DNA of 64,000 nucleotides from a virus, in IMG/VR virus record IMGVR_UViG_3300032213_002237, positions 1 to 64,000 of that record. One strand, 5' to 3'. A model generated the notes under the pieces. It made no database searches and was not told the origin of the DNA. It saw nothing but the letters and a program-made list of their open reading frames with translations. Of this stretch, positions 8,314 through 63,818 are shown piece after piece. Position 1 is the stretch's first letter. Each line of letters starts with the position of its first letter. The translations under genes were made by a program, and so were the position numbers.

Positions 8314-9810
8314 ATGTCAATTCATCGTTCATACTTTAGTCGTAATAATACTTTATTATCCAACAGTTTTACTAATACTGGTAAATCTCCATGGACACAA
8401 CTTTATTTTGGTTCGTCATCAGATGTAATCGCATCCCCAGGATATAGTAGATTTATATTTGATTTGGACCTTTCACAACTTGTTGAGAAAATTCAAGATA
8501 AGACAATATCAACAGGTTGCACGAGGTTTTCAGGTATTACTCACACACTTAGAATGACTAACACATCGTCATTTGATAAAGAAGGGTTATCTAATGAATA
8601 TACTAGTCAAGGAAGATTAAGAGCTACTTCATTTGATTTAATTTTATTTAGAATTCCATTGACATCAGGAACTACAGGTACTGCTCAATTATGGGACGAA
8701 GGTGTTGGTTACGATTATTACGATGTCCAAAGAACATTAAACTCGGCAAATGGTTTATTATCACCAATTGTTTTACCACAAGATAAGTCATACTCACAAA
8801 GACCGTCTAATTGGTTCCAAACTACAACATTAAGTGGATGGAGTACTAATGGAATATATAATAATACAACTGGAGGTAATGTTGATTATTCAGATTTAAT
8901 CATCGTTGATACTCAACACTTTGAATTTGGTAATGAGGATATTGAGTTTGACATGACAAATGAAATTAATCAATATCTTACAGGTTCAACATCAGGATTT
9001 ACAGGATGGGGAATTGCGTATTTACCTCAATTAGAAAATTTAACAGGGTTAACTGAAAACTATTCTGTTGGGTTTTTTACAAGACATACTCAAACATTTT
9101 ACGAACCATTTTTAGAAACTTCGTATAATGATTTAATATTAGATAATAGAAATTCATTTTATTCACACAACAATAATCGTCTTTATTTATATTCTTATAT
9201 TGGAGGGGTTCCAACAAGTTTAGACAATCTACCTGTTGTTACTCTTGAAAATAATCAGGGTAATGTTGTAGGAACTTATACAGGTTGTCAAATAACTCAA
9301 GGTGTTTATCAAATAACAACAAGTGGGATAACTGTAACAACTCCATGTATGTTTACAGATACTTGGTCTAATTTAGTTTATAATGGTATTTCATTACCTG
9401 ATGTCGTTAATGATTTAACTGTATTACCTTATCAAGGGTATTTTACATTAGGAACACAAAGTAAAGACCCTGAATTATTTGGATTTGATTTTTACGGTAT
9501 TAAACAAGATGAAAAAATACTTAATACAGATGTTAGAAAAGTTGGTGTGGTAATTAAAAAAGCTTACACATCAAATCAAGTATTAACACCTGTCACAGCA
9601 TATTATAGAATATATGTAAACGAAGGGACAACTGAAGTTCAAGTTCAAGAATGGACTCAAATTAATAGAGCATCTAACGAATACTATTTTATATTTGATA
9701 CAAAAGATAAAATACCAAACGAATATAATGTAGATATTAAAGTACTTACGTCAGGTGAAGTAGATACTTATAAAAAAACACTAACATTCCAAATAGTTGA
9801 TAAGAAATGA
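8314..9810 (+). CDS. Virion structural protein (tail/fibre candidate)
   Basis: 498-residue Thr/Ser/Gly/Asn/Tyr-rich, beta-strand-dominated protein with almost no Cys or long helices, typical of tail fibre or baseplate periphery proteins. I cannot name a T4 counterpart. A TATTTAT element at 8295-8301 lies 12 bases before the ATG, giving it its own likely late promoter after the hub gene. Its stop overlaps the next start (ATGA). Confidence 0.65.
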   Translation: MSIHRSYFSRNNTLLSNSFTNTGKSPWTQLYFGSSSDVIASPGYSRFIFDLDLSQLVEKIQDKTISTGCTRFSGITHTLRMTNTSSFDKEGLSNEYTSQGRLRATSFDLILFRIPLTSGTTGTAQLWDEGVGYDYYDVQRTLNSANGLLSPIVLPQDKSYSQRPSNWFQTTTLSGWSTNGIYNNTTGGNVDYSDLIIVDTQHFEFGNEDIEFDMTNEINQYLTGSTSGFTGWGIAYLPQLENLTGLTENYSVGFFTRHTQTFYEPFLETSYNDLILDNRNSFYSHNNNRLYLYSYIGGVPTSLDNLPVVTLENNQGNVVGTYTGCQITQGVYQITTSGITVTTPCMFTDTWSNLVYNGISLPDVVNDLTVLPYQGYFTLGTQSKDPELFGFDFYGIKQDEKILNTDVRKVGVVIKKAYTSNQVLTPVTAYYRIYVNEGTTEVQVQEWTQINRASNEYYFIFDTKDKIPNEYNVDIKVLTSGEVDTYKKTLTFQIVDKK

Positions 9811-10325
9811 AAAAAGTAGTATTAAAAGAAAACGAATATATTAAATTATTAAAATTTGTATTATCCGAAGCATTTACCGCAGGTGAAGATAAAATTGACG
9901 TAATTTTAGATAAAATAAGTCAATCAGGTATGGAATCAATTACACCTGAAGAAAGGGAAACTCTTGAGAAATTTACTAAAGGTATTTCAATAGAAGACGA
10001 ACCATCATCTAAAGATGATTTTATGACAAAAGCGGGTGGTTTTTGGTCTTTTGAATTTCCAGGGATGCCTTCATTTAAATTTAGATACGAATCAACTGAA
10101 GATACTGAAGATGAAAAAATACACACAGGATATCTAACAGTTGATGATAGTGATTACTATGGTGAAATTTACTGTGATACTGAAGGTAATTTTCAAACTT
10201 GTATGTTTGAAAATACAACTGAAGGAACTAATGTATTTGAAGATTATGAAGGTTTAGAACACGATATTGAAGTGTTTTTAGATGTAGTCTGTAATGACCT
10301 AAAAGAAGATGATATGATGGCATAA
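9807..10325 (+). CDS. Acidic leader-bearing hypothetical protein
   Basis: 172-residue, very acidic protein of unknown function. The first 21 residues form a leader like those of many other genes here: MKKVVLKENEYIKLLKFVLSE followed by Ala. This is a basic amphipathic helix ending in L-S-E|A, the form expected for T4 gp21-type prohead protease sites. That makes it a candidate internal head protein, which is inference. It overlaps the preceding gene by 4 bases (ATGA) and ends 1 base before the next. Confidence 0.65.
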   Translation: MKKVVLKENEYIKLLKFVLSEAFTAGEDKIDVILDKISQSGMESITPEERETLEKFTKGISIEDEPSSKDDFMTKAGGFWSFEFPGMPSFKFRYESTEDTEDEKIHTGYLTVDDSDYYGEIYCDTEGNFQTCMFENTTEGTNVFEDYEGLEHDIEVFLDVVCNDLKEDDMMA

Positions 10326-10326
10326 T

Positions 10327-10770
10327 ATGAAAAATTTAGACAATTTAATTAAAAAAGTACTTAAAGAAGAAACTCAAAGATATATGTTCTTCAGTAATTT
10401 AGAACAAATGAAACGCCAATGTGAAATACTACTTGGTAAGGATAAACAAATGATAGAATCTATTTTAGATAATGGACACGATTGGGCTCAAGACCATATT
10501 GCCGAAGCCAAAAATAATATGGACCAAGTATTTGATTTTATCATGAATGAAATAGAAGGTGAAGATTTTAGTAGCGATGATGCTGTCGAAGTAATGTATG
10601 AAGGTCGTAAAAAGGCGGGTACTAAATTATGTGCTCGTGGTAAATCAGCAGCTAAAGCGAAATTTGATGTTTACCCTTCGGCATATGCTAATGGTTATGC
10701 TGTACAAGTATGTAAAGGTACAAAACCTGGTTTAGACGGAAAAAAACACTGTTCAGGAGCATATTGTTAA
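10327..10770 (+). CDS. Leader-bearing protein with Cys/Lys-rich C-terminal domain
   Basis: 147 residues. The N-terminus MKNLDNLIKKVLKE|ET is a short version of the shared leader, with L-K-E at residues 12-14. The C-terminal 50 residues contain RKKAGTKLCARGKSAAKAKF and VYPSAYANGYAVQVCKG, a motif common in large phages that I recall as a DUF5872-type domain (number from memory). The Lys/Arg-rich Cys-containing domain could bind nucleic acid or packaged DNA. It would be a head-internal protein if the leader hypothesis holds. Confidence 0.7.
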   Translation: MKNLDNLIKKVLKEETQRYMFFSNLEQMKRQCEILLGKDKQMIESILDNGHDWAQDHIAEAKNNMDQVFDFIMNEIEGEDFSSDDAVEVMYEGRKKAGTKLCARGKSAAKAKFDVYPSAYANGYAVQVCKGTKPGLDGKKHCSGAYC

Positions 10771-10779
10771 TTAAAAATT

Positions 10780-10809
10780 TTGAATTATTAAAAAAACATA
10801 GTATATTTG
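10780..10809 (+). promoter_or_regulatory. Host-type (Bacteroidota) promoter
   Basis: TTG at 10780-10782, 19 bases, then TATATTTG at 10802-10809. This matches the Bacteroidota -33/-7 consensus (TTG ... TAnnTTTG). It precedes the gene starting at 10829, leaving a leader of roughly 14 bases. Confidence 0.75.
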
Positions 10810-10828
10810 TAGTCAAATCATAAATGAC

Positions 10829-11243: not shown

Positions 11244-11489
11244 ATGTCAAAGTTAGATACACAAATTAAAAAAGTATTAAAAGAAATGTCAGAAGAACCA
11301 GAATATGGAAGACTTGATAGAAGTTTAGTACAAGACGTTATTGATAGATTACTATCAGATGAGACAGGTGGATATAGAGGTGCTTTAAAAGCATTAAATT
11401 CTGAATTTAGTACAGGACAATACTCAAGACCTGAAAGAACTTATGAACCTCTTAGACCAGGTATTAGAGTTAGTAAAAGTATTTATTAA
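11244..11489 (+). CDS. Small leader-bearing hypothetical protein
   Basis: 81 residues. The N-terminus MSKLDTQIKKVLKE|MSEE is nearly the same as that of the protein at 10327 (LDxxIKKVLKE), so this is another member of the shared-leader set, with L-K-E at 12-14. The C-terminal SRPERTYEPLRPGIRVSK resembles the RPGIR segment of the neighbouring minus-strand gene, perhaps reflecting a common binding partner. Its stop overlaps the convergent gene's stop by four bases (TTAA). Confidence 0.65.
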   Translation: MSKLDTQIKKVLKEMSEEPEYGRLDRSLVQDVIDRLLSDETGGYRGALKALNSEFSTGQYSRPERTYEPLRPGIRVSKSIY

Positions 11490-12223
11490 TCTAAAGCCTT
11501 TCTAATTAAAGAAATTAAGACCGATTCGTTGGTCTTTTTCTTTTTAGGTTTGTATGAAGTCATAACAGGTTTTTGACCTTTACCTGTTTGAGTATCTTTT
11601 TTTTCAGCATTTCTTTTTTGTTGACAAGCGGCTTGTTTTTGAGAATCAGACATTTTTGCTGCAACACCAACAGCTCTACATTTAGGATATCCTTTTTCAT
11701 CACCCTCAGGTCTACCACAAGGTGGATGTTTACCATCTTTTTTACGACAAATATTAACCCATGGACCTTTAGGTTGTTTACTTCCTTTTGGTTTTTTCTT
11801 AGTGCCAAACCAAACACCTAAATCTTCATTAGTCTCTTTTTTTGATTCATTCACCGAATCTACTTGATAATGTGGTTTAAGTCTCTTAAATGGAGCGTAC
11901 GCATATTCATCATCTCCTTCATCAGGAGCGTCTTGTCTATAATCTTTATCTCTAATATGTTTTGCTAATTTTTCTCTTTTTTGAATTTCTTTTTTAGATT
12001 TTTTAACATCACCATCTAAAGAATCATAATTTAAATCAGCATCAACATAATCAGATACAGGTTCAATAAATGGCATTAAATTTTTATCAAACCATTTTCT
12101 AATTCCTGGTCTAATTGGTGGTTTGTATGTACCACCAACAGTTGATGTAGTAGAGGCTTCATTTAAATATTCCTCATATTCAGTTAGTTTTTTAAGAATT
12201 TCTAAAATAACATTACTTTTCAT
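11486..12223 (-). CDS. Head-associated Cys-rich basic protein with processing site
   Basis: 245 residues from ATG 12223; a TTG six bases upstream is less likely. The N-terminus is a helix ending YLNE|ASTTST, with the predicted cut after residue 22. This closely matches the capsid protein's LINE|ASSTAD. The C-terminal half is Lys-rich with GPWVNICRKKDGKHPPCGR and YPKCRAVGVAAKMSDSQKQA, a Cys-containing module seen in many large phages. It lies just downstream of the capsid gene and has TATTTAT on its sense strand at 12249-12255. It is likely an internal or decoration head protein, possibly DNA-binding. Confidence 0.7.
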   Translation of the reverse strand: MKSNVILEILKKLTEYEEYLNEASTTSTVGGTYKPPIRPGIRKWFDKNLMPFIEPVSDYVDADLNYDSLDGDVKKSKKEIQKREKLAKHIRDKDYRQDAPDEGDDEYAYAPFKRLKPHYQVDSVNESKKETNEDLGVWFGTKKKPKGSKQPKGPWVNICRKKDGKHPPCGRPEGDEKGYPKCRAVGVAAKMSDSQKQAACQQKRNAEKKDTQTGKGQKPVMTSYKPKKKKTNESVLISLIRKALD

Positions 12224-12567: not shown

Positions 12568-14469
12568 TTATCTTAATTCATTCAAATCGAATGTACGAAC
12601 ACCATCAACGATGATACGACCATAGAAACGGTTATTAACCATCTTCTTAGCGTAACGTGTCATAATACCCTTGATAGGAGTAAAGTTGAATGGGTTATAC
12701 ATTGTTGGAGTTAATTGTAATGGTACGTATGGAGCGTAGATGTAACCAGTATCCAATAAAGAAGTACCTTTATGACCAATCAACACAGTGTTAGCTGGGA
12801 AGTATGGGTCACGGTATACTTGGTAACGACCACTTAATGTACCAACTCTCTCAATACCCATGTTGAATTGGTCTTGTTCAGGAGCCGCGTTTGATACGTG
12901 GAAGTATTCCAAGTCATCAAAGATAGCACTGATTTCAGAAGATACAACAATCCAGTTAGCTCCACCTCTTAAAGTAGACTTATGGATTTGAGCTGAAATT
13001 TGGTTGATTGCAGTAATCAACGTTTGATTCCAGTCCTTTTGAGTATAAGGAGTTGCTTGGTTGTTCAGACGCTTCCATCCGTTGTAATCCCAACGTAATG
13101 TCCAAGCCGCACCTTTACGTAAATCACGTAAAATTTCACGGTCAATTTCAGCTGCCACTTGCTCAGATAATAAAGCTGTTAATTCAGCCTCAGCATCGAT
13201 GTTGTGGAATGCTGCAACGTCTTGTGCCATTTCAGGAGACCATTGTGCTCTTAATTTTCTTTCTGTAACAGAAACAGTTACTGACTCAAGGTCGAAAGAA
13301 ACTTCACCAATTCTGTCTTCAAATTCTAACTCTTCGTAACGTCTCCAAGCTGCTAAAATGTTAGTGTAAGCGGCACCTGTACCATTGGTAGCTGCCGACC
13401 ATTGACTGTTTGTTAATGAAGAACCTGAATATCCATCAGGAGTTGATTGTCCACATGCAATACATGCAGGAACTTGAGCATCAATCTCTAAATAAATAAA
13501 TCCAGTTTGGCTACATACGTTATCATAATAACCACCGTTACCACCTGTGCTTGAATTACCAAACGCAGCTTGTTGTGAAGTATACTGAGGTCCGTACATT
13601 GCTTGACCATACTTCTGAGTTACAACACGATATAAAAGTGGTGTAAATCTGTTAGTATTCAAGTTAGATGCAACTGTTGAATTGTCAGTATAAAGTACTA
13701 AGTTAGATAAGAAAGATTCTGTATCTTGTTCTTGTCCGTCAGGACCAATTAACTTACCGATACCTGCAGTTGAGAATCCTGATAACGCAACAATAATTTT
13801 ACGATATTCAGTTGTACCTGTAGCATTTTGTCCATTAAGAGTATAACCTGATGGAATTAATGCTCCATTTGACCAAGCAACTGTTGGAGTAGCTGATGTT
13901 AAAGTAACAAATCTACCTTTAGAGTAATCAAATAAACCAGCTGGGTTAAGACCTGGCTCAGTTCCTTCATAGAACAAATCATAAAGATTCTTAGCGTAAG
14001 TTGAGTTGTAAGAACCGTTACCTGAACCGTAACCAGCGTCAGGATTTCCAGGATAGTTTCCAGGAGAACCAACTGGACCGTAATGGTCACCAGATGATAC
14101 ACCAAGACTGTCAGTAACTGAACCTCCAGAATAACCTTGGATTTGTGGTACGAAGTAGAACAATTTACCGATTGGTAAGTTCATAGCTTGTACAGAAACG
14201 ATTTCGTTAGACAATAATTTAGAGAACACACGTCTGATGATAGGGAATACCACAGTCTCGAATGAACCTGAATCTGCCGTAGAAGATGCTTCGTTAATCA
14301 AATGTGACGCTTGGTTTTCATACAATTGTGCAACATTTTCTTTTAGGTGGCCTTTAAGACCTTCAAGGAACCCTAATTTGTCCCATTTGTTTACTGTGTC
14401 TTCTTTGATAACTTTCAAGTGCTTAAGACCGATGTTACCAACTAATCCACTTTCTAATAATGCTCCCAT
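12568..14469 (-). CDS. 23: Major capsid protein (gp23-like)
   Basis: 633-residue major head subunit of the T4 gp23 type; T4 gp23 is 521 residues. The order is as expected: a charged N-terminal region with NKWDKLGFLEGL (compare NKW in T4) near 28-38, then LYENQASHLINE|ASSTAD at 50-66. This gives a predicted prohead-protease cut after Glu60, in the same place as the T4 cut after a [LI]xE motif. Next comes VFPIIRRVFSKLLSNEIVSVQAMNLPIGKLFYF (about 74-107), the gp23 core start. A Gly/Asn/Tyr/Ser-rich insertion (120-165) probably forms a surface loop. Core, DUF4494-like and protease genes follow upstream on the same strand. Confidence 0.95.
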   Translation of the reverse strand: MGALLESGLVGNIGLKHLKVIKEDTVNKWDKLGFLEGLKGHLKENVAQLYENQASHLINEASSTADSGSFETVVFPIIRRVFSKLLSNEIVSVQAMNLPIGKLFYFVPQIQGYSGGSVTDSLGVSSGDHYGPVGSPGNYPGNPDAGYGSGNGSYNSTYAKNLYDLFYEGTEPGLNPAGLFDYSKGRFVTLTSATPTVAWSNGALIPSGYTLNGQNATGTTEYRKIIVALSGFSTAGIGKLIGPDGQEQDTESFLSNLVLYTDNSTVASNLNTNRFTPLLYRVVTQKYGQAMYGPQYTSQQAAFGNSSTGGNGGYYDNVCSQTGFIYLEIDAQVPACIACGQSTPDGYSGSSLTNSQWSAATNGTGAAYTNILAAWRRYEELEFEDRIGEVSFDLESVTVSVTERKLRAQWSPEMAQDVAAFHNIDAEAELTALLSEQVAAEIDREILRDLRKGAAWTLRWDYNGWKRLNNQATPYTQKDWNQTLITAINQISAQIHKSTLRGGANWIVVSSEISAIFDDLEYFHVSNAAPEQDQFNMGIERVGTLSGRYQVYRDPYFPANTVLIGHKGTSLLDTGYIYAPYVPLQLTPTMYNPFNFTPIKGIMTRYAKKMVNNRFYGRIIVDGVRTFDLNELR

Positions 14470-14496: not shown

Positions 14497-15879
14497 TTAT
14501 TTTATTATTTTTGACATAATGTCTTTCATTCTCAAGAATTGTGGATTCTCGTAAGTTTTAGATTCAATCAAATTAACGGCTGAACCTGACTGTGGAGTTT
14601 TCTCAATAACTCTTTCGATTGACTCATTAACAAATTTCTTATTGTTGTCAATATATAATTCGTCTTTGATATTTTTATAAAGGGCTTTAGACTCTTTAAG
14701 GGATTCCGCTGAATCAAATCTTCTTAAAATGTTAATTTTTTCTTGTTTTGATGTAGAATGTTCAGTGAACAATCTTGTAGCGTAAGCAAGATTCGAATTG
14801 AATATCGCAACTTCATTAAGTTTATCTCTAAACATATTTAAAGCCTTTCTATACTCTTCGTTTTTAGCTCTCAACATTTCAACTTCTTCCATGATTTCAC
14901 GGTTTTCAAAAGTTAAATTTCTGTTAGGTGTAACACCTTTTCTTAAACCACGTCCTTTCTTAGAACCAAATCCATAAGTACGAGCAGCTTCTTTAGCTTC
15001 TTCCTTAGTGAATTTTTTTACACCATGTGGACTTGGCATTTCAAACATATCACCTTCTTTAAATTCAAATTTAGGTTTTCCTGTATGAGCAGTTGGATTA
15101 ACGGCTTTTTTCTTTTCGTTAAAACCACCTTTTGTCTTTTTGAATGTAGATGCTGTTTTAGCGTTACCTACTTTCGCAGCACCTTTACCTAATTTTGCTT
15201 TAAATGATTCCATAACAGAGTCCATTTCTTCTTCCGTGTAGAAATCTTCTTCTTCAAGTGAATCCATTTCGATTTCATAAACCATTTCTTCAGTTTCTTC
15301 TTCTTCAAGTGAATCCATTTCGATTTCGTAAACCATTTCTTCAGTTTCTTCTTCAGTTTCTTCGTTATATTCCATACTTTCATATTCTTCTTCTTCAGAT
15401 TCAGTTTGAATAAGGTATTCATCTTCTTCATCTCTTAAATGAATAAAATCACCTTCTTTTTTAATTTCAAACGTGTCGTCAGAATTCATTTGTTTGAAAG
15501 CTTTAAGAACATCTTCCATAGGACTGTCAGTCAAATCTGTAACTTCCATAGAATCAAATTCATTATCATCTTCTATGTCAGATAAATCCATCATATCGAA
15601 TCCCTCCTCGTCAGATTCCTCTTCTTCAGATTCTTCTTCTTCAGATTCATCTTCTTCAGATTCATCTTCTTCAGATTCATCTTCTTCAGATTCTTCTTCA
15701 GATTCATCTCCGATTACGAACTCCTCTTCTTCAGCCTCATTTTTCATAGACTCTTTTACTAATTCACTAATTTCTTCTTTCATTGTAGAATGAAGTATTT
15801 CTTTTGCGTTTTCATTGATAGCTTCTTCCAAATTTTGTATTTGGATTAATGCCTCTTCAACTAAGTTTTTTTCTGCCAT
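14497..15879 (-). CDS. 22: Prohead core/scaffold protein (gp22-like)
   Basis: 460-residue internal scaffold of the prohead, expected to be degraded by the prohead protease during maturation. The N-terminal 55 residues are helical. They are followed by a very acidic tract (about 55-90) built from ESEED units, a second acidic repeat around 180-212 (METEEMVYEIEMDSLEEE-type, twice), a basic Gly-rich linker (225-310), and a helical C-terminal half resembling gp22-type core proteins (LRAKNEEYRKALNMFRDKL). Its position between capsid and protease genes is the T4 order. Sense TATTTAT lies 18 bases before the ATG. Confidence 0.85.
   Translation of the reverse strand: MAEKNLVEEALIQIQNLEEAINENAKEILHSTMKEEISELVKESMKNEAEEEEFVIGDESEEESEEDESEEDESEEDESEEEESEEEESDEEGFDMMDLSDIEDDNEFDSMEVTDLTDSPMEDVLKAFKQMNSDDTFEIKKEGDFIHLRDEEDEYLIQTESEEEEYESMEYNEETEEETEEMVYEIEMDSLEEEETEEMVYEIEMDSLEEEDFYTEEEMDSVMESFKAKLGKGAAKVGNAKTASTFKKTKGGFNEKKKAVNPTAHTGKPKFEFKEGDMFEMPSPHGVKKFTKEEAKEAARTYGFGSKKGRGLRKGVTPNRNLTFENREIMEEVEMLRAKNEEYRKALNMFRDKLNEVAIFNSNLAYATRLFTEHSTSKQEKINILRRFDSAESLKESKALYKNIKDELYIDNNKKFVNESIERVIEKTPQSGSAVNLIESKTYENPQFLRMKDIMSKIIK
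15615..15712 (-). repeat. 15-bp tandem repeat coding ESEED units
   Basis: Repeats of CTTCAGATTCATCTT (plus strand) in the gp22-like gene, encoding Glu-Ser-Glu-Glu-Asp/Glu. This is a direct repeat prone to expansion or contraction in frame. Confidence 0.8.
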
Positions 15880-16217: not shown

Positions 16218-16937
16218 TTATTTTCCTAAATAATCGGAAAGTCTTCCCATTAAATCAAGCGATTTGTTAACTGTTCTTGATGCTTTCATTTCATTTTCTT
16301 CTTGTAGGTTCTCCTCAAACGCAAATCTTCCATCAGGTTCAGTAAATAAATAAGCTCCCGGTGTTGATGGTGAAGATACCAAGTCAAAACAAATTAATTC
16401 AAAATCATCTTGAACTTCATTTTGGTCACCTACCTTCTTTAAGGAACCTACCCCTCTTGATGATATACCTAACGTTACACCCAATCTTAATAGATTTGCT
16501 GCTTGGTCACCCTTTGTAGATACGATACCTCTTTCATGGAACCCTGGTGAAGTTAGAAGTAATAGTTTACCTAATAGAACATTACCATCCCACCACATCT
16601 CTGTAATCATGTGTGATACTCTATCTAAATCTATCAACGAAGACTCAGGGTGGTTAAGTTCTGATAAGGCAGTTTTTTTACCAATATAATTTTTTATATA
16701 GTTTTCAGATTCTCTTTTTAGAATTCTTTCAGGATATATTCTACCGTTTCTATTCGGTGTATTATATTTTTGTAGAACGGCATAGAACTCAAATGGTTTT
16801 GAATAATCTTTAAAATCCCTACTTTCTTGTAGAAATGTTTGATTATGTTTTTCTGTTGGGGAAACATAACCTGCATCCATTTCAATTAAAATACCTTTTC
16901 CCGTCTCTTTTGGACCTAATATTTTGTAATTTTGCAT
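16218..16937 (-). CDS. 21: Prohead protease (gp21-like serine protease)
   Basis: 239-residue maturation protease of the T4 gp21 (peptidase U9) type, active inside the prohead. The catalytic His is in ELNHPES (His96) and the Ser in GISSRGVGS (Ser159/160), with FDLVSSPSTPGAY after it, the usual gp21 order. Known gp21 enzymes cut after Glu in [LI]-x-E. That motif appears at the capsid processing point and at the end of many N-terminal leaders in this window. TATTTAT at 16953-16959 on the sense strand is 15 bases before the ATG. Confidence 0.93.
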   Translation of the reverse strand: MQNYKILGPKETGKGILIEMDAGYVSPTEKHNQTFLQESRDFKDYSKPFEFYAVLQKYNTPNRNGRIYPERILKRESENYIKNYIGKKTALSELNHPESSLIDLDRVSHMITEMWWDGNVLLGKLLLLTSPGFHERGIVSTKGDQAANLLRLGVTLGISSRGVGSLKKVGDQNEVQDDFELICFDLVSSPSTPGAYLFTEPDGRFAFEENLQEENEMKASRTVNKSLDLMGRLSDYLGK

Positions 16938-17494: not shown

Positions 17495-17680
17495 ATGTTA
17501 ATTATCACAGTTGATAAGGGCGATATTGAAAAATCCCTTAAAAAATTCAAATCAAAAGTTTTAAAAACTAAAATGATAAAGGAATTACAAGACAGAAAAG
17601 ATTATAAAAAAAAATCTGACATGAAACGTCAGATTTTAAATAATGCTATTTATAAAAATTCAAAAAATAATGAATTATAA
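17495..17680 (+). CDS. rpsU: Ribosomal protein bS21 homologue
   Basis: 61-residue phage-encoded small-subunit protein bS21. MLIITVDKGDIEKSLKKFKSKV matches the family start (Ile/Val-rich strand then the LKRFKR-type helix), followed by a second helix rich in Lys/Arg (RKDYKKKSDMKRQILNNAIY). Length is typical for Bacteroidota bS21. The product would join 30S subunits near the 3' end of 16S rRNA. In Flavobacteriia, bS21 with bS18 and bS6 is known to mask the anti-Shine-Dalgarno sequence, so a phage copy could bias initiation toward phage mRNAs (inference). It is a lone plus-strand gene inside the minus-strand head block, overlapping its convergent neighbour by 6 bases. Confidence 0.88.
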   Translation: MLIITVDKGDIEKSLKKFKSKVLKTKMIKELQDRKDYKKKSDMKRQILNNAIYKNSKNNEL

Positions 17681-18408: not shown

Positions 18409-20247
18409 TCAACTTTTAAGTAGTTTATCTAATTGATTACCCATTTCCCCTAAAGATTCTTGAACACGACTTAAATCAATTAATTCATCTTCATTTAACA
18501 TTCCTGTATTTTCTAATAATATATTAAGTTCCGAATTACGGGTATACGACCCTTCAGGTACTGTTGGTGCCGCTTCAGGTGGAGCTGGTGCTGGTGACGC
18601 CGGAGCTTCAGGTGGAGTACTTTCACCACCTCCAAAATCACTCATTCCACCATCTGGTGGAGCTCCTCCACCTTCTGATGGAGTACCAGCCGGTTCACCT
18701 TCTTTTTTACCATACAACTTATCAAGATTATCAAATAAACCTGTGTGAGTAATAACTTCAGCAGTTTTCTTAAGTTCTTCACCAACAGCTCTTTCAATAC
18801 GTTGTTGTTGTAAGTCAAGTTTAATTTCTTCATCAGAAAATCCAAGAATATGTTTCTTAGCCCATGACATAGATACTGCGGCAATACCACTACCAGGGTC
18901 AGCAACCATATCTTTATATAGAAGAATTTTTTCTTTCCATACATCAATCTTCATCAAATCAGCTTGAGTTGATGGATTTGTTAAACTTAAATTAAAGTTT
19001 GATATTTCATCTTCAAATCCTAAAATAAATAAATGTATAATTGCAATTTTATTTAATTCAGAAATCATATTTTTTTGAATTCTGTTAATAGTTCTTGCAA
19101 AACGAATATCTTGTAATGATAAGTTCTTACCATCACCAACAGTTTCTTCAAATCCTAAAAACGCTTTAGGAACACGAAGAGCTGTTAATAATTTCTTTTG
19201 AATGTACTCAATGTCGGCAATTTCTGATAAGTTCTGAGCACCTGCTAATGTTTCAATAGGACTTGCTTGTGCGGTATCTCTAACAGGAACAAAATAATCT
19301 TGGTCAACTGCCATCTGATTAAATCTCATATCAACATTACCTGTCTTATGGTCAACCGTTTGACTTCTCTTAAACTTATTGGCAAATCTTTGGATATATG
19401 GTTCAACATCAGCATCGTCCATGTTTCCAACGAATACTTTAAATACACGTCTTTCAGGTGCTCTTGATGTTCTATAAATTAACATCGCATCTTCAGATAA
19501 CAATAATTGTTTCCAAATACGACGAGCCTTTTCTAACATAGAAGTTCCGTAAGGAAGTCTTCTATCATCACCAAGTAATCTAAAGTGAGCAATTTCCCAA
19601 GTATTGAACTCTAAATCCTTTTGCTTCCATTTAAATTTCAAATGTTTCTTTTCAGGATTTGTTGTTGAATCTGTTGAGTGCGCTCCCATACCCGCCTCCA
19701 ATCGTTCAATCTCGATGATTGGTAATTGCATACATCCTATAATACCTTTTTCAGGGTCTAATTTAAGATATACAAAATTATCACCATATTTACATGTGTT
19801 TCTTATCCACATAGGTAAATTGGTATTGATGTCTAGTGCGTTATTAAACAAATCACCGAGGATTGATTTAATTCTTGATGATTCAGAATAAATTTGTAAC
19901 ATAAAACCATTTTGGTCAATGGTTGTAGATTCTTCGGCGTAAATGTCTAAAGCTGCTCCAATTTCAGGTGTAAATTCCATTGACTCATAGTCATAGAATG
20001 ATGATAATCTGGTTGGTTCATAAAAAACCGCCTGTGTGTATAGATTATTTTCAATTCTACCCCATTGGTTTGCTAAATAATATGTTTGTTGTGCCTGAAG
20101 TTTTTCTCTTTCATATTCAGACTTAGAGGTTGTTTTTAATAACTCACTCTTATCATATTTGTATGTAGGATAATCCTGTCCCAAAAGAGAATTGGGTCCA
20201 AATGTTTGGGATAACCGTTGCCATACCGTTAGTTTATTTTCACTCAT
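18409..20247 (-). CDS. 20: Portal vertex protein (gp20-like)
   Basis: 612-residue portal, the dodecameric channel for DNA at the head vertex; T4 gp20 is 524 residues. Recognisable gp20 features include YDYESMEFTPEIGAALDIYAEEST near 84-107, WIRNTCKYGDNFVYLKLDPEKGI near 150-172, and the wing/stem region with RAPERRVFKVFVGNMDDADVEPYIQ followed by LRVPKAFLGFEE. The extra length is a low-complexity Gly/Pro/Glu C-terminal tail (about 520-575) that T4 lacks. It lies between the terminase-side genes and the protease, as in T4. TATTTAT at 20256-20262 is 8 bases before the start. Confidence 0.95.
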   Translation of the reverse strand: MSENKLTVWQRLSQTFGPNSLLGQDYPTYKYDKSELLKTTSKSEYEREKLQAQQTYYLANQWGRIENNLYTQAVFYEPTRLSSFYDYESMEFTPEIGAALDIYAEESTTIDQNGFMLQIYSESSRIKSILGDLFNNALDINTNLPMWIRNTCKYGDNFVYLKLDPEKGIIGCMQLPIIEIERLEAGMGAHSTDSTTNPEKKHLKFKWKQKDLEFNTWEIAHFRLLGDDRRLPYGTSMLEKARRIWKQLLLSEDAMLIYRTSRAPERRVFKVFVGNMDDADVEPYIQRFANKFKRSQTVDHKTGNVDMRFNQMAVDQDYFVPVRDTAQASPIETLAGAQNLSEIADIEYIQKKLLTALRVPKAFLGFEETVGDGKNLSLQDIRFARTINRIQKNMISELNKIAIIHLFILGFEDEISNFNLSLTNPSTQADLMKIDVWKEKILLYKDMVADPGSGIAAVSMSWAKKHILGFSDEEIKLDLQQQRIERAVGEELKKTAEVITHTGLFDNLDKLYGKKEGEPAGTPSEGGGAPPDGGMSDFGGGESTPPEAPASPAPAPPEAAPTVPEGSYTRNSELNILLENTGMLNEDELIDLSRVQESLGEMGNQLDKLLKS

Positions 20248-33873: not shown

Positions 33874-33902
33874 TAAAAAGGGACTGAAAAGTCCCTTTTT
33901 TT
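33874..33902 (+). terminator. Terminator after tmRNA
   Basis: AAAAAGGGACT gaaa AGTCCCTTTTTTT hairpin three bases after the CCA end; it also serves the convergent peptidase gene. Confidence 0.9.
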
Positions 33903-49367: not shown

Positions 49368-49740
49368 TGTAACTGTAACAATTACAAAGTTTCAAAATTT
49401 TAATCATAGTTCATCAATTCCAACATTTGATGCGATGGATTCGGATTTGATTGAATATCCTAATTACGGAATTGGAAAAAATGTTTACACATTTGACTTC
49501 AATAAAAGAACTGTTAACTTGGTAAACTGTAATGGTGAATTCGTATTACCAATCATTGAAGTTTTCAATACAAAAAATGTTTTTGATTGTATTGTTGATG
49601 ATAACGGAACTAAAACATACTACACACTTGGTAAAATTGAAGATGAGGATACTCTTGAATTTATTACTGAATACCAAGATGGTAATAGAGTTTTTGGTTC
49701 CTTTTCAAAAGGTAGTGATGTGACATTCACAACTAAATAA
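49306..49740 (+). CDS. Secreted protein, paralogue 2
   Basis: 144 residues. Signal peptide identical to that of the gene at 47927 (MKNLFLSLVLVMVGLVANSQ), then a diverged mature domain (VTITKFQNFNHSSSIPTFDAMDS...). Same beta-rich layout and length. The near-identical 5' ends and diverged mature parts suggest a duplication followed by fast change in the secreted portion, or selection to keep the export/expression cassette. Confidence 0.8.
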   Translation: MKNLFLSLVLVMVGLVANSQVVTVTITKFQNFNHSSSIPTFDAMDSDLIEYPNYGIGKNVYTFDFNKRTVNLVNCNGEFVLPIIEVFNTKNVFDCIVDDNGTKTYYTLGKIEDEDTLEFITEYQDGNRVFGSFSKGSDVTFTTK

Positions 49741-49789: not shown

Positions 49790-50443
49790 TTAAACATTCA
49801 TTTTAGGAAGTCCAGCACTTGTTAACTGATTATTAACAATAAACTCAAACATCGCTTGGTCAAATGTTTCACCGGAATCCTGACCTCTTGTACCTAATAA
49901 TTTTTTAGCAGCTTCTACGTCATATAAATCACCGGCTCCCAATTTGGTCAAATAATCTTTCATTTTTTGTGTCCAAAGTGATTTAAAGGATTTTCCTTTT
50001 TCAGCCTTAGATGTGTATGTTGAGAATGGGTATGATTTAAATTCCTCAGGTGTTGAATAATATCTAGCTAACACACTTATATAATCTTTAAAGTTAGATA
50101 CCATATCACAACATGGATTTCCAGGTTCTGGAGAACCACAATAAGAAATCCAACCAACTTCTCTATCAGTTCCACGAGTTTTATTAAGAACATCATTAAA
50201 AACTGGGTCAAAAAACTCACATAGACCACCATTACTTGGTACATTCAAAAAATTATTAATATTTTTATCAGTTAACCCATTTAGTTTATAAGTAACACCG
50301 TTAATTAGTGTACCGGCAGCAGGTTGTCCTTGTTTTACAGGTTGAGTAACTTGTTCACTCAAATAATTCTTTTTGGTTGCACTTTCATGCATTTCCAATA
50401 TTCTTTGTTTTTCTTCTGAAGAAATTTCAAATAGTTTTCTCAT
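49790..50443 (-). CDS. Leader-bearing hypothetical protein, 217 aa
   Basis: Start set at ATG 50443 (MRKLFEISSEEKQRILEMHE); a longer frame upstream has no support. This is the second leader type, with EEKQRILxMH, and a possible cut at YLSE|QVTQ (Glu30). A Gln/Pro-rich linker precedes a helical domain with four Cys (CDMVSNFKDYISVLARYY region). Unrecognised. TATTTAT at 50460-50466, 16 bases upstream. Confidence 0.65.
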   Translation of the reverse strand: MRKLFEISSEEKQRILEMHESATKKNYLSEQVTQPVKQGQPAAGTLINGVTYKLNGLTDKNINNFLNVPSNGGLCEFFDPVFNDVLNKTRGTDREVGWISYCGSPEPGNPCCDMVSNFKDYISVLARYYSTPEEFKSYPFSTYTSKAEKGKSFKSLWTQKMKDYLTKLGAGDLYDVEAAKKLLGTRGQDSGETFDQAMFEFIVNNQLTSAGLPKMNV

Positions 50444-52857: not shown

Positions 52858-53556
52858 ATGAAAGAATTATTAAATAACCCTGAAACTATAAAAAATTTTA
52901 AACTTTTACATTATATCCTATTAAGTAATGGTCTTACTCGTGTCAGTAATGACTTTTATGTTGATTACGACGGGAATGTTGATTATCACTTCTCACCTTG
53001 GACTAATAAAGGTGGAGCTTATGATATTATACCTAATAAATTATTTGATTTTTTAGATAATTTTTTTGACACTATTAAAGATGAAGTTTTAGATTCATTA
53101 GAAGGTGATGGTGATTCTAGAGCAACGGTGTCATGTGAGTATTCAACAACAGACAAAACTTTAATAATTGAAGAAAATATTCAAACTATGGGTTATGAAT
53201 CATATTACCAAGAGTTTGAAATTGACGAAAAGGAATTACTTGAAGATATGGTTCAGTGGAAAGAAGATGGTAAACTTAAAATTAGTGTTAATTTTAGCGG
53301 TGATGGTGATTCAGGTTATATTGATGACGTTGGTCTAATCAATGATACTGATGACAAACATTATGAATTTACAGCGGTTTGGGAAAATAAGTTATACAAC
53401 ATTTTGGAACAAAATCATGGTGGATGGGAAATAAATGAAGGCTCTGAGGGAACATTTATAATTAACAATGAAAACCAAACTATAGAACTAGATTTTCGTA
53501 TGAATGTTGAAGAATCTTCAACAGGTTACGAATTTAAACACCAATTTGAGTTTTAA
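52858..53556 (+). CDS. Acidic hypothetical protein, 232 aa
   Basis: Start set at ATG 52858 after the TATTTAT element; an in-frame upstream ATG at 52843 lies inside the element region. Asp/Glu/Gly-rich, beta-leaning, with NFSGDGDSGYIDDVG. Unrecognised; similar in style to the 359-aa protein at 32322. Stop overlaps the convergent gene (TTAA). Confidence 0.6.
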   Translation: MKELLNNPETIKNFKLLHYILLSNGLTRVSNDFYVDYDGNVDYHFSPWTNKGGAYDIIPNKLFDFLDNFFDTIKDEVLDSLEGDGDSRATVSCEYSTTDKTLIIEENIQTMGYESYYQEFEIDEKELLEDMVQWKEDGKLKISVNFSGDGDSGYIDDVGLINDTDDKHYEFTAVWENKLYNILEQNHGGWEINEGSEGTFIINNENQTIELDFRMNVEESSTGYEFKHQFEF

Positions 53557-53870
53557 TAAACCTGAATAGTTCTTTGTGGTCTGTCATCACCAAAGTCAGG
53601 ACAGAAATAAACATTATTACCATCGTGGTAAACTGTTCCACCAACTCCATTAGGAATTTTGTGTTTTTCATGGAATTTTTCACCCAAATCTATTTGGTGA
53701 TTACCATCTTTGATAATAAAACATAAGTTTTCAAAATCACACTTATATTGTTGGTCCTTGTTTTTATGTTTCATAAACTCGTCAAAAGACATTACGTATC
53801 TTGCATCTTCGTTAAGGTATCTTTTAACGATAAATTCTAATTGGTTTTCTGTGATAATAAACTTTTTCAT
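53553..53870 (-). CDS. Leader-bearing protein, 105 aa
   Basis: Leader MKKFIITENQLEFIVKRYLN-E|DA, cut expected after Glu21. The remaining 84 residues form a small beta-rich domain with two Cys and His (YKCDFENLCFIIKDGNHQIDLGEKFHEKHKIP). Unrecognised. TATTTAT at 53876-53882, 5 bases upstream. Confidence 0.65.
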   Translation of the reverse strand: MKKFIITENQLEFIVKRYLNEDARYVMSFDEFMKHKNKDQQYKCDFENLCFIIKDGNHQIDLGEKFHEKHKIPNGVGGTVYHDGNNVYFCPDFGDDRPQRTIQVY

Positions 53871-53888: not shown

Positions 53889-55679
53889 TTAAGAATAAAT
53901 TCCTTGACTATAAATTTTCCATTCTTTTTTTCGTCTGTCTTCGTATGGAAAATCAATAAAATGTTGTTCAACATTTCGTAAATTATTTGGATTATTTTTT
54001 AACGCTGCTGATAAATTTGGAGCTTCTTTTGTACAACCATCAAATCCCATTTGATAACATAATGAACACATCGCGTCTAATTGTTGTTGACTTAAGTTTG
54101 GGTATAAATTAAGTATTTTTTTTGCGTTTTTGTTTAATGTGTTTTTCATTAATTCTTTTGCCTTTGTTTCGGTAATATCAGGGTCATTAGGTTTAACAGG
54201 TATTCCACCAGGATAATACGTTGTACCATAACCTATTGTTGCCTTTGCTCCGGGAGTTGGGGATTTTCCTCTTAAACAACAATCAGGTTCTTTTCTCACA
54301 CATTTACCACCTTTAGCGTCGTCATAAACACACTTAACAAAAAACTCAATATTCGCTACAAAATTTACAAGTTTATCTGAAACTGTTCCGACCCCAACTG
54401 TATTTGAATTTGATGACTTTTCTTTTGCAATTTTTGCAATTTTTTTAGCACCAGCTTTAACTGCATCAACAGCACCTCCTGAATTTGGTGTCATTTGGTC
54501 TTTTGATGGTGCCATAGAAGACCATGTATTCATTAAATTTGATTCTTCTTTTTTATCATCAGAACCAAAATATTTGTTATAGAAATCCATAGTCGATGTT
54601 TGCTCATTAATATTTGGTCTTAAAACCGTCATAGCCTCAGGGAAGTCTTTGTTTAAAACATCCTCATCCTTATTTGTGTAAGGAATGTTTTGTAAAACGT
54701 ATCTAATTGAGTTTAGACCTGAAATCTTTTTATCGTTAGAATCCAAAACAACCCACGGATGATTCACTGTAGATGTCTTATCAAAAAGTTTTTGTTTATA
54801 TTCTGTAAACTTTTCCCACACATCTTGCATCTTCTCATCATTCTCAGAATACTTCCAATATTTCAATGGTGACTTCTGTCTGAAATCAAATCTCTTAGCT
54901 TGAGTTTCTTTATCTATTGAGAACCAAAGTTTAAATAAGTAATCCCCATCAACAACCAATGATTCTTCAAAATCCTGAACATTATCCATAAAGTCTTCGT
55001 ACTCTTCTGACGAACCATAACCCATTACAGGTTCAACTAATCCTCTATTGTACCAACTTCTATCAAAGAAGTTTATCTTACCTTTTTCAATTTGATTACT
55101 GTATCTATCCCACCAGTTCTTTCTTTCATCAGGTGTTGGGATACCAAGAGCAATAACTTTATAATATCTTGGATTTAAATTTTCAGTGAATTTCTTAATT
55201 GTAGAACCTTTACCTGCCGAGTCTCTTCCTTCAAAAACAATTATAACAGTTTTACCTGTTTGTTTTAACCATTCCTGTAACTTTAAAAGTTCAACCTGTA
55301 GAAAAAATATTTCTTTTTTATAAATGTCTTTATCTAAAATTGATGGTTCTTCTTCAGGATTAACAACTTCTTTTTTATTTTTTCTTTTTTCTAATGATTT
55401 AGTTAGTTGTTTGAAAAATTCAAAAACATTAATATCTTTGTTACCTTTTAACTTTAAAGTTTTTAAAACACCTCTTGTTATTAATCCAAAATCAACCAAA
55501 CCGTCTTTTGAGTAATCATCAATTTTATTAATAAATTTTTGAATTTGAGCACTATACACTTTATTATCTTTTAAAACTGAAACAAGATATTTTATTTCAG
55601 GGCTATATTTTGGCTTATCGGCCTCTTGTAAACCCATCATGTTTTTCATCTTACTAACTTCAGTCAATAAATTCCTCAT
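53889..55679 (-). CDS. Polyphosphate kinase 2-lysozyme fusion with leader
   Basis: 596 residues. Leader MRNLLTEVSKMKNMMGLQE|AD (cut after Glu19). PPK2 domain (about 120-345): Walker A EGRDSAGKGS (150-159), lid/Walker B FFDRSWYNRGLVEPVMG (204-220), KxxRFxxRxxxPLKYWKYSENDE. PPK2 enzymes move phosphate between polyphosphate and nucleotides. After a linker with a second I-N-E (Glu359) comes a GH24-type lysozyme (about 432-596): Glu445 in NIEFFVKCVYDDA, TIGYGT (481-486), and LSQQQLDAMCSLCYQMG. An inserted Cys-rich loop (KCVRKEPDCCLRG) sets it apart from T4 lysozyme. Two sense TATTTAT copies precede the ATG. Confidence 0.88.
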   Translation of the reverse strand: MRNLLTEVSKMKNMMGLQEADKPKYSPEIKYLVSVLKDNKVYSAQIQKFINKIDDYSKDGLVDFGLITRGVLKTLKLKGNKDINVFEFFKQLTKSLEKRKNKKEVVNPEEEPSILDKDIYKKEIFFLQVELLKLQEWLKQTGKTVIIVFEGRDSAGKGSTIKKFTENLNPRYYKVIALGIPTPDERKNWWDRYSNQIEKGKINFFDRSWYNRGLVEPVMGYGSSEEYEDFMDNVQDFEESLVVDGDYLFKLWFSIDKETQAKRFDFRQKSPLKYWKYSENDEKMQDVWEKFTEYKQKLFDKTSTVNHPWVVLDSNDKKISGLNSIRYVLQNIPYTNKDEDVLNKDFPEAMTVLRPNINEQTSTMDFYNKYFGSDDKKEESNLMNTWSSMAPSKDQMTPNSGGAVDAVKAGAKKIAKIAKEKSSNSNTVGVGTVSDKLVNFVANIEFFVKCVYDDAKGGKCVRKEPDCCLRGKSPTPGAKATIGYGTTYYPGGIPVKPNDPDITETKAKELMKNTLNKNAKKILNLYPNLSQQQLDAMCSLCYQMGFDGCTKEAPNLSAALKNNPNNLRNVEQHFIDFPYEDRRKKEWKIYSQGIYS

Positions 55680-56977: not shown

Positions 56978-57394
56978 TTAACGTCTTCTAATGTGTCTTC
57001 TGATACTCTCAGCCATTGGATTCATTGGTTCTTCATCTTCCATATCCATATTATCCACTTCAACTTCAGAATCCATTTCTTCACCTGAATCCATTTTATT
57101 ACTTTCGTAATCTTGGATAATAGACTTAAGTTCCATTGCTTCTTTTTGTTTCCCTTTAGTATTTCTTAATTCACTATAAAGTTCTTTAAGATAATCCCAT
57201 CCAGCAATACCTAAAAGTCCAATAGTTGTTCCAACCATTGTTACGATAGCACTACCAGTCTCCATAGCTTCGGGATTAAAGAAGTTTTCAACTTCCTCAC
57301 TAACTCTGTTTCTTTTATTTCTCTTTGTTTCTTTAACTACTGTTTTAATTAAGTTAGTTAATTCTGATTCTGATAATCTTACAACTTTTTTCAT
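56978..57394 (-). CDS. Leader-bearing membrane protein, 138 aa
   Basis: Leader MKKVVRLSESELTNLIKTVV-KE|TK (cut expected after Glu22). A hydrophobic segment AIVTMVGTTIGLLGIAGWDYL lies at about 49-69, then charged helices with Met/Glu/Asp and a final RRHIRRR. A single-span membrane protein that could enter the head with DNA and insert on injection (inference). TATTTAT at 57442-57448, 47 bases upstream. Confidence 0.65.
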   Translation of the reverse strand: MKKVVRLSESELTNLIKTVVKETKRNKRNRVSEEVENFFNPEAMETGSAIVTMVGTTIGLLGIAGWDYLKELYSELRNTKGKQKEAMELKSIIQDYESNKMDSGEEMDSEVEVDNMDMEDEEPMNPMAESIRRHIRRR

Positions 57395-58347: not shown

Positions 58348-58836
58348 TTAGTTTTGAATTTCATCAGTTTTATACCTTTCATCGTCGTTATATTTCATTA
58401 AAATACTTGAAAAATATTTTAAATAATCTACGTTACCATCAAAATTTGCATAACTAGGTATTCCACCGTCAAATCTATAGTCATCAGGTTTTCTAAAATC
58501 TGTCTGAATATAATCAATAATTAATGGATATTTATTTCCATCCGCATAACCATTTTGAATTGCCCAAAGAGCTGCGTTATACGCATCTTGAGAAGTAATT
58601 TTACTAATAGCCGTTTTTACTTTTTCTTCATTAGTAAGAGGACCTTCTATAGCATCTCTTAACTCATATGCGGTACCTTTACCAAAATCTAAAAATGCCG
58701 TATTTACAGGTACTGCTTTACCCTTAATTGTTGCAAATGCTTGGTATTCTTCAAATAATTTACCTTTCAAAGATGGATTTGAGTGCATTCCCAAAATTCT
58801 TTGTTTTTCTGATTCGGTTATAACTAATCTTTTCAT
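58348..58836 (-). CDS. Leader-bearing hypothetical protein, 162 aa
   Basis: Leader of the second type: MKRLVITESEKQRILGMHSN...KLFE|E (Glu29), sharing SEKQRILxMH with the gene at 49790. The body (about 35-162) is mixed alpha/beta with no recognised motif (SQDAYNAALWAIQNGYADGNKYPLIIDYIQ). TATTTAT at 58861-58867, 24 bases upstream. Confidence 0.65.
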   Translation of the reverse strand: MKRLVITESEKQRILGMHSNPSLKGKLFEEYQAFATIKGKAVPVNTAFLDFGKGTAYELRDAIEGPLTNEEKVKTAISKITSQDAYNAALWAIQNGYADGNKYPLIIDYIQTDFRKPDDYRFDGGIPSYANFDGNVDYLKYFSSILMKYNDDERYKTDEIQN

Positions 58837-62343: not shown

Positions 62344-62401
62344 AGTATTATATTTTTTATAATAATACTAATAATGATTTTACTAGTCAAATAATCTAGT
62401 A

Positions 62402-62437: not shown

Positions 62438-62453
62438 ATTAATTATAATTTCT

Positions 62454-62843
62454 TCATTTAAGTTGTTTCATCGATAATGCCAAATAATATGAAGTACCTG
62501 GTGTTTTGAAACTACCTATACCATGAGGGAATGTAAAAGCGTCATTTTTGTAAGTATATATTGCACGGGGTTTTAATTGTGGGTATTCATAGTTGTCAGT
62601 TGAAATTAAATCATAACTGTTACCACCAACTGACTTTACCGACATGGCAACTCTAACAGGTTTACCGTCTTTGTTTTTAATTACGTTTTTATCTTTACCA
62701 AAAACTGTGAAAAAATAGTCTTTACCATCCTCAAAATTTATATCTTCTGGTTTCTTTTTTGAAGTATCTGTTGTTTCTTCATTAATAACTCTTTTAACTA
62801 TTCTAACCAAATCTGACTCGGTTAATCTCACTATTTTTTTCAT
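62454..62843 (-). CDS. Leader-bearing hypothetical protein, 129 aa
   Basis: Clearest leader: [24 protein letters not shown], cut expected after Glu22, differing from the gene at 63201 by only a few residues over 22 positions. The mature part (about 107 residues) is a beta-rich domain (FTVFGKDKNVIKNKDGKPVRVAMSVK) with no known motif. TATTTAT at 62861-62867. Confidence 0.7.
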   Translation of the reverse strand: MKKIVRLTESDLVRIVKRVINEETTDTSKKKPEDINFEDGKDYFFTVFGKDKNVIKNKDGKPVRVAMSVKSVGGNSYDLISTDNYEYPQLKPRAIYTYKNDAFTFPHGIGSFKTPGTSYYLALSMKQLK

Positions 62844-62860
62844 AATATATAATGTTTAAT

Positions 62861-62867
62861 ATAAATA
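62861..62867 (-). promoter_or_regulatory. TATTTAT late-type element
   Basis: Sense-strand TATATTTATA, 17 bases before the ATG at 62843. Confidence 0.5.
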
Positions 62868-62877
62868 TATGTGGGTT

Positions 62878-63189
62878 TTAAAACTCCATGTTAATTCTCT
62901 TAATTTCTATTCCAAACTTATCGGAATAATATTTTTCAATACCTTCACCAACCGAATTTCCAAATAAGATACGCATCTTTTCAAAAAAAGAATAATCAAT
63001 CCATAATGTCCCGTGATTATTTCTGTGAGCAATTCTTACAGGGTAACCATCACTATCAACGTCTTTCCTACTAAAAAAATGAATATACCCATCATCTTTG
63101 TCAATGTTCATTTCAACATCACCATAGGTAGCCTCCATGTACTTCTTAATAACCTCATTTAACTTACTCTCGGTAATAATATATTTCAT
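62878..63189 (-). CDS. Leader-like hypothetical protein, 103 aa
   Basis: MKYIITESKLNEVIKKYMEATYG: the leader pattern (ITESxLxxVIKKYM) is clear but the cleavage motif would be Y-M-E. The rest resembles the protein at 53553 (both have a folded domain with HKNNHG/DGNHQ-like loops). Unrecognised. Confidence 0.6.
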   Translation of the reverse strand: MKYIITESKLNEVIKKYMEATYGDVEMNIDKDDGYIHFFSRKDVDSDGYPVRIAHRNNHGTLWIDYSFFEKMRILFGNSVGEGIEKYYSDKFGIEIKRINMEF

Positions 63190-63200
63190 ATTATATATTT

Positions 63201-63818
63201 TTATTCAACTGGTGGCTCCGGTGTACTTGTCACATCGTTTAAATATTTAACATAGGGACGCCCAATGGGAGTGAAAACATTAACAGTGTCTTTAGTGAAT
63301 GGACGACCTTCAGTAGCCGAATAAAATTTAAAATCTGAAAATGGTAAAAAAGGGTAATTTAATAACTTATCACCAAATTTATTCTTTAATTCATCCACAG
63401 TAAGATTTGTTGCAATAGCTGTCAAAACTTCATTATCATTATTTATATGTTTACCAAATGTTTTAAATGATGACATTTTATTAAATAATTTTTCTAAAAC
63501 ACCCTCAACATAAATAGTATACCTATCTTGAGCCATAACGTAATCAGTTGGTACTGGTTTTGGTGTTGATGAAACCGTAGTTTGAGTTTTTCCAGGTATT
63601 TTTAATTTTTGACCAACACGAATTAAATTTACATTTTTAATATTATTTAAAGTTGCAATTTCTTTCCAATTAACACCCAAGGTTTTACCAATCTTACTTA
63701 AAGTATCACCCTTCTTAACTACATACTCCTGATTTGTTACCGCATTAGAATCTTCTGTAATAACTTTTTTAACTATTCTAACCAAATCAGATTCAGTTAA
63801 TCTTATAATCTTTTTCAT
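63201..63818 (-). CDS. Leader-bearing LysM protein, 205 aa
   Basis: Leader [24 protein letters not shown] (cut after Glu22). LysM domain at about 31-76 ([20 protein letters not shown]...[12 protein letters not shown]), which binds peptidoglycan. A Thr/Pro linker joins it to a C-terminal domain of about 110 residues with no recognised motif ([23 protein letters not shown]...). Fits a protein delivered to the cell wall or carried in the virion to help penetration. TATTTAT at 63825-63831, 6 bases before the ATG. Confidence 0.85.

Follow-up and report, generated by a model that had tools for sequence, protein, structure and literature searches.

Many proteins of an uncultured phage have bodies that are unrelated to each other, and start with the same few short leaders, which end at the motif L/I-x-E. 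The DNA is IMG/VR record IMGVR_UViG_3300032213_002237. The window analysed here is positions 1-64000 of that record, which in full measures 84,199 bp; its right arm, at 64-84 kb, is called L007. Judged by its likeness to known phages, the record appears to come from a T4-like phage of Bacteroidota, a host phylum taken from PMC9723584. The leaders are most likely capsid-targeting propeptides like those of the T4 proteins IPII and IPIII, diversified and massively expanded, which would target their proteins to the head and be cut there.

This reading is supported by features that can be read directly from the sequence: the leaders and their exact edge at the presumed P1 Glu, the swaps at that point, the gene of a prohead protease and its co-occurrence with the leaders, and a conserved site with the same motif in the capsid protein. 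The near-absence of the leaders from cellular genomes supports it as well. The strongest evidence is provided by natural leader swaps, in which one body is joined, right after the Glu, to different leaders.

An earlier note on this DNA had proposed that the leader-bearing proteins are packaged in the head as cargo, trimmed there, and in many cases possibly injected. The core of this proposal, a cleavable head-targeting propeptide, is well supported by comparison. Packaging, cleavage and presence in the virion are what we infer from it, as is injection.

Shared N-termini

The sharing was scored on 127 open reading frames (ORFs) from the window and L007, using ungapped BLOSUM62 alignment of proteins with non-homologous bodies. 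Among pairs of N-terminal 45-mers, 236 score at least 35, against 32-36 in shuffles and 34, 7 and 8 in internal segments. At a threshold of 50 there are 74 pairs, against 0-1 in shuffles. Similarly, [LI]xE is found within residues 1-34 of 74 of the 124 proteins, and within residues 41-74 of 43 out of 116 (Fisher p = 5e-4).

The sharing of N-terminal leaders between unrelated proteins is real, and wider than first described. The comparison with shuffled N-termini, which had been suggested as a check, comes out far over chance (236 versus about 33 pairs).

Leader classes and their edge

Class A reads MKK[IV][IV]RLTESDLxRIVKRVIxE and has 22 residues. Class E is MNLQExIRRxLRE, with 13 residues (13-14), and class F is MNLQExIxRIxxMMGLxxE, with 17-19. 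Class D consists of the 7 residues MKY[LI]ITE. Class B, ...KQRILxMH..., is rare and its end is uncertain. Classes A and E have one common core, Lxx[IL][IV][KR][KR]V[LI]xE.

Since an edge may be an artefact of the profile that finds it, the search for leader A was repeated with residues 1-12 only, leaving out hits at the standard fetching position, which gave 140 distinct proteins. Glu22 is present in 98% of these, and I, L or V at position 20 likewise in 98%, with residue 21 variable. Residue 22 carries 3.54 bits of information, and residue 24 carries 0.36. Among 75 body-family representatives, M1, L7, E9 and E22 are invariant and mean column identity is 7%. When residues 1-5 are taken out of the model, 225 of its 270 matches still have a Met where one would be expected, which puts the module at the extreme N-terminus.

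The motif Glu of class F is at residues 17-19 in 49 of 53 cases, and Glu7 of class D is found in 96% of 252. In classes A, D and F, the leaders end at L/I-x-E, with the module edge at the Glu. For class E there are 184 pattern matches; 132 of them place the motif Glu at residue 12 or 13, and most of the others are F-like. The regular expression for class F is noisy (43 matches in reversed frames against 204), and for this reason PAS/histidine-kinase and some AAA matches among F bodies were not counted as cargo.

Leader swaps

From 286 sources (IMG/VR loci), 794 distinct leader proteins were collected, which form 307 body families. Leader A is common to 162 of these and leader D to 34, and 13 families have more than one leader class.

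The clearest swap is between classes A and F. Writing a slash for the candidate cut, the class A side is VKRVINE/GLHDTSWQNDEGDK (VKRVINE/GLHDTSWQ, in L222), and the class F side is MMGLLTE/GLHDTYWQNEDGDK (GLHDTYWQ) and MMGVINE/GLHDTSWENDEGDK (GLHDTSWE), in L201, L219 and L213. The bodies are 61-83% identical, and the alignment begins at the motif. The body of the gene at 10327 (RYMFFSNLEQM) is preceded in relatives by at least six leaders, MEKLIKKILKE and MKKVVKLTESDLSRIVKRVLNE among them, and Glu14 is invariant in 26 sequences. A-to-D swaps also occur. Because of the core common to A and E, whole-protein BLAST at the swap edge often runs on into the leaders; a near-clean alignment start is seen for A-to-F swaps only.

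Link to the prohead protease

The minus strand of the window holds a T4-type head module with a gp23 capsid protein, a gp21-type protease, a gp20 portal and a large terminase. The major capsid protein (12568-14469, minus strand; PF07068, E 4e-72) has a conserved propeptide end, LINE60/A, at about 14290. The motif, whose Glu is residue 60 counting Met, is shared by 79 of 80 relatives; the linker behind it varies, as expected for the end of a gp23 propeptide. The head maturation protease (16218-16937, minus strand; phrog_207 profile, E 2.9e-44) has a candidate self-cleavage site of its own, LQE38/S, with the motif in 53 of 60 relatives and the Glu in 57 of 60.

Two further head sites named in the earlier note are conserved as well. 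A neighbour of the capsid gene (11486-12223, minus strand) has YLNE22/A in 35 of 35 homologs. The protein at 24264-25565 (minus strand) has RINE/A near its N-terminus, with the Glu in 15 of 15 homologs and Ala at P1' in 14 of 15. By contrast, the non-leader neighbour at 12265 retains no N-terminal motif (0/13 and 1/26).

A survey of 56 virus records with leaders detected the protease in 37 (18/24, 12/21 and 7/11). The other 19 have neither the protease nor a convincing terminase; weak terminase matches in G014, G025, G030 and G034 were read, by judgement, as other ATPases. Lacking a convincing terminase, these 19 records are probably incomplete and cannot be scored for pairing. The expectation that leaders always pair with a gp21-type protease therefore holds wherever a convincing terminase is found, as an association that is lineage-wide.

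In rumen phages G046, G055 and G051 (the records of L306, L334 and L309), the protease match is in two pieces about 0.5-1.1 kb apart. Internal stops in two of the three suggest introns or insertions.

A DNA pattern scan of 84,980 cellular species genomes found leader A on one 3.2-kb contig only (L297), apparently a short piece of phage DNA that was binned with an Alphaproteobacteria metagenome-assembled genome. Ten records of 240-326 kb have leader A alone 8-17 times each. A tblastn search of INPHARED phages with leader A gave no match, which is weak evidence with a 24-residue query and low-complexity filtering.

Proposed mechanism and alternatives

During head assembly, the leader would bring its protein into the prohead core, presumably by docking on that core. 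In most classes it would be an amphipathic helix, short and basic, with the core sequence given above for A and E; in class D it would be just the 7 residues before the cut in MKY[LI]ITE/S. The gp21-type protease would then cut the terminal [LI]xE behind its Glu, which would free the cargo inside the head. If the classes can for the most part stand in for one another as addresses, a new body could be loaded through gene fusion or recombination. T4 IPI and Alt are ejected into the host along with the DNA; that the same happens to the cargo here is suggested by analogy, with lower confidence than targeting and cutting.

It is rather doubtful, if conceivable, that this amounts to a general loading code. 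The classes would then differ in the site or stage of the prohead core that they address, and each related large Bacteroidota phage would have tens of fast-changing cargo proteins, some with an LTE-flanked C-terminal tail cut by the same protease. Each virion would deliver a large and exchangeable set of proteins that act early.

Possibly only A, E and F are true packaging leaders, D and B being a mere common N-terminal structural element; this is unlikely, with a real chance of being right. Class B is indeed rare with an uncertain cut site, and most D proteins belong to one paralogous family. The stretch at 72.8-81.6 kb of the record (L007 8789-17602) holds ten paralogs that are homologous in their bodies, most of which start with MKYLITES. 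Against this, D leaders are found on 34 body families with a near-constant Glu7, and they replace A leaders. In addition, AlphaFold2 leaves residues 1-6 of the D family unstructured and outside the fold, which begins at residues 7-8 (mean predicted local distance difference test, pLDDT, of 92).

It is quite improbable that the leaders are uncleaved helices that dock on the core, the capsid wall, a membrane or another phage structure, with the Glu as a helix end or contact. The leaders are predicted by AlphaFold2 to be helical with an amphipathic pattern, their TESD-type starts resemble helix caps, and docking alone would explain swapping. The terminal motif, however, is that of the protease and of the conserved capsid-protein site. 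Classes of unlike length and sequence (22 residues in A, 13-14 in E, 17-19 in F and 7 in D) converge only on [LI]xE, and the D leader, outside the predicted fold, is too short for a helix. The 10327 family is modelled with a helix of its own at residues 2-14, predicted at low confidence; a break follows at 15-18, and the helices of the body start at 19. Both models fit removable leaders that end at the Glu.

Least probable by far is a genealogical relic of duplicated and diverged ancestral genes, or a conserved DNA or translation-start element: neighbouring genes do have leaders in common and the ten body-homologous genes do form one large paralogous family, but single bodies have several leaders, leader A alone is on 162 body families, and varying codons at invariant leader residues, with no strong conserved element in the 60 bp upstream, mean that selection acts on the protein.

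Several points weigh against the leaders being cleavable propeptides. [LI]xE is a short and common motif. Class A holds a second copy, LTE9, which means that the cut could be at 9, at 22 or at both. Most class D proteins are, as stated, one paralogous family. Of the 56 leader-bearing records, 19 are not scorable for protease pairing, and one of these, G048, holds a short gp23 fragment in which setting the protease was not detected. The association being lineage-wide, the protease link is not independent evidence for each gene. Finally, T4 IPII and IPIII start with MKTYQEFIAE and IPI with MKTFKEF...ITE, and the leader classes of the window are unlike MKTYQEFIAE except for the terminal motif. 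The leaders agree with those of T4 in every feature that can be tested on sequence, but without recognisable homology to them: the likeness is one of function, and not membership of the same sequence family.

Leaders in the window and record

Leader genes of classes A, D, E, F and B number about 37 in the record once four weak regular-expression matches are dropped; the window holds 14 of them and the stretch at 64-84 kb the other 23. The leaders of the right arm are chiefly MKYLITES and MNLQExIRRVLRE starts.

Leader A is found on the minus strand at 49157-49222 (MAKIVRLTENDLVKIIKKVLYE/E, gene 48392-49222), 57329-57394 (MKKVVRLSESELTNLIKTVVKE/T, gene 56978-57394), 62778-62843 (gene 62454-62843, 129 amino acids) and 63753-63818, the last on a LysM protein (gene 63201-63818; LysM E 8e-16). 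An intermediate between A and D, MKKFIITENQLEFIVKRYLNE/D, is at 53808-53870 (minus strand, gene 53553-53870). On the plus strand, a variant of A, MKKVVLKENEYIKLLKFVLSE/A, is at 9807-9869 on a DUF6576 protein (gene 9807-10325), with the site in 11 of 11 homologs.

Leader E is at 10327-10368 (plus strand, MKNLDNLIKKVLKE/E, gene 10327-10770), at 11244-11285 (plus strand, MSKLDTQIKKVLKE/M, gene 11244-11489, motif in 4 of 4 homologs) and at 47574-47612 (minus strand, MNIKKLIKKVLTE/S, gene 47013-47612). Leader D is represented by MKYIITE/S at 63169-63189 (minus strand, gene 62878-63189) and by the variant MKYLIKE/S at 46132-46152 (plus strand, gene 46132-46752). Leader F, MRNLLTEVSKMKNMMGLQE/A, is at 55623-55679 (minus strand) on a PPK2-lysozyme fusion (gene 53889-55679); its profile match is weak (E 0.17), yet it is the top-ranked N-terminus of the genome. 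Leader B is on the minus strand at 50354-50443 (EEKQRILEMH...LSE/Q, gene 49790-50443) and at 58750-58836 (MKRLVITESEKQRILGMH...LFE/E, gene 58348-58836), with the exact cut position uncertain in both.

The earlier note had listed 17 leaders, and 13 of these stand: 9807, 10327, 11244, 47612, 49222, 50443, 53870, 55679, 57394, 58836, 62843, 63189 and 63818. Those at 35508, 41306 and 43598 are at background with the class F profile, and so is 44710, which had been graded as weak from the outset. With no profile score above background, the class C reading of the first three and the weak B reading of 44710 were dropped. The leader gene at 46132 was absent from that list and brings the window to 14.

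Proteins carrying leaders

Most leader-protein bodies have no known domain. The domains that were matched are LysM, peptidoglycan-binding, M15/VanY, lysozyme, PPK2, Mom and DUF6576. The list of payloads proposed earlier is thin, most bodies being domainless, and the M23 gene at 33901 has no supported leader. PADLOC gave only weak matches on leader bodies, two leader families searched by fold had no significant hit, and the D fold has no significant match in the PDB. For contrast, ten window genes with mostly ordinary enzymatic or ribosomal domains were scanned, among them matches to ClpB-type AAA, HNH, sugar epimerase, a tRNA-synthetase domain, FKBP and bS21. None has a leader.

A C-terminal tail, ELTE[KR]CWKGYTQKGMKTMFGKRYPNCVK, is found on different bodies in 24 frames (L194, L220, L211, L244, L294, L222 and others), mostly 26-27 residues from the end and with an [LI]TE motif before it. 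It is possibly the C-terminal counterpart of the leaders. T4 Alt is processed at its C-terminus as well (PMC9026906). The C-terminal module of the gene at 10327-10770, YPSAYANGYAVQVCKG, is exchanged in some relatives (L009, L015 and L020) for a basic module, NPSLWQSCLNWAKSRYKVCPSAYCNGAAAK, after ELTE/EITE. There is a faint, non-significant structural likeness to DUF6321 proteins of cyanophages.

Three of the ten right-arm paralogs (72789, 80240 and 80868) have C-terminal repeats of VExVLNHKVxTT units. The genes at 47927-48379 and 49306-49740 (plus strand) have an identical 20-residue start that resembles a signal peptide, MKNLFLSLVLVMVGLVANSQ, and their products are for this reason probably exported.

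Head gene block

The portal protein of T4 gp20 type is at 18409-20247 (minus strand; phrog_213, E 9e-64). A probable scaffold or core protein at 14497-15879 (minus strand) is assigned by position only, between the capsid protein and the protease; it has several conserved [LIV]xE sites, and family profile searches with it gave no informative match. Ribosomal protein bS21 (PF01165) is encoded antisense at 17495-17680 (plus strand), between the portal and protease genes.

According to PMC9723584, an antisense bS21 within the terminase-portal-protease-capsid block is the hallmark of bS21-encoding freshwater Bacteroidetes phages. The record has the same arrangement, and because this marks that phage clade, the host phylum is predicted to be Bacteroidetes.

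Significance

If the leaders are what they appear to be, the head contents of widespread uncultured large phages can be read from sequence via a tag of 7-22 residues, which marks cargo among genes mostly without known domains. Hundreds of unknown protein families would become candidates for virion-carried, possibly injected proteins, with roles in anti-defence, takeover or wall degradation. It would also account for how such phages exchange cargo, and provide new tags for loading proteins into phage heads.

No prior description of these leaders was found in the open-access papers searched, most subscription papers lying outside that search. The principle of capsid-targeting propeptides is already known; it is the diversified, many-class and expanded form that, from the sequences, appears to be new.

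Comparison with known systems

T4 gp21 cuts after L/I-X-E. The propeptides of its cargo, known as capsid-targeting sequences (CTS), have 10-19 residues, Alt loses 7, and gp23 loses 65 (PMC9026906). In the CTS of IPIII, residues 4 and 7 play a part in targeting, and 8 and 10 in processing (PMC9026906). Foreign proteins fused to a T4 CTS are packaged in the head (PMC9026906).

The leaders described here are similar in being short N-terminal propeptides, as predicted, on unrelated cargo, with an L/I-x-E end and a T4-type protease and gp23 in the same phage. Both are portable between unrelated bodies, here by natural swaps and known from sequence alone. Unlike T4, this phage has several interchangeable classes and tens of leader genes per genome, compared to about four, and its class A and F leaders exceed most T4 CTSs in length.

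T4 gp24 (MAKINELLRE) loses 10 N-terminal residues to the prohead protease (PMC9958956), ending in L-x-E, a format like that of class E (V-L-R-E). However, gp24 is a shell protein, whereas the leaders here are on presumed cargo.

Phages phiKZ and SPN3US similarly have many head or ejection proteins with protease-cut propeptides (PMC5694885), and SPN3US gp53 and gp54 have an identical 15-residue start (PMC5694885). Their motif is S/A-x-E, however, the propeptides are often over 100 residues, and the phage lineage is different.

The bS21-encoding Bacteroidetes phages have the same head gene block with antisense bS21, and no mention of leaders was found in the available text of PMC9723584.

Flavobacterium phage immuto (NC_055915) has a related gp23 capsid protein (42%) and its own smaller leader sets, for example MKKQILSEQFKRMQxLAGIITE and MENFDLKKFLVENKLT, with predicted cuts such as MKKQILSEQFRRMQKLAGIITE/S. 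The uncultured huge phages LR745206 and LR756502, of 634-642 kb, have candidate leader starts such as MINNFIKFINE (on PPK2, L296) and MRHLKRFNE. A recurrent start in L296, L298 and L299, from these same two phages, is MK.[IL]K.[FY]NE. By their sequence, these seem to be a further leader family, closer in type to that of T4. The leaders thus vary from lineage to lineage, with other sets in immuto, the rumen phages and the huge phages.

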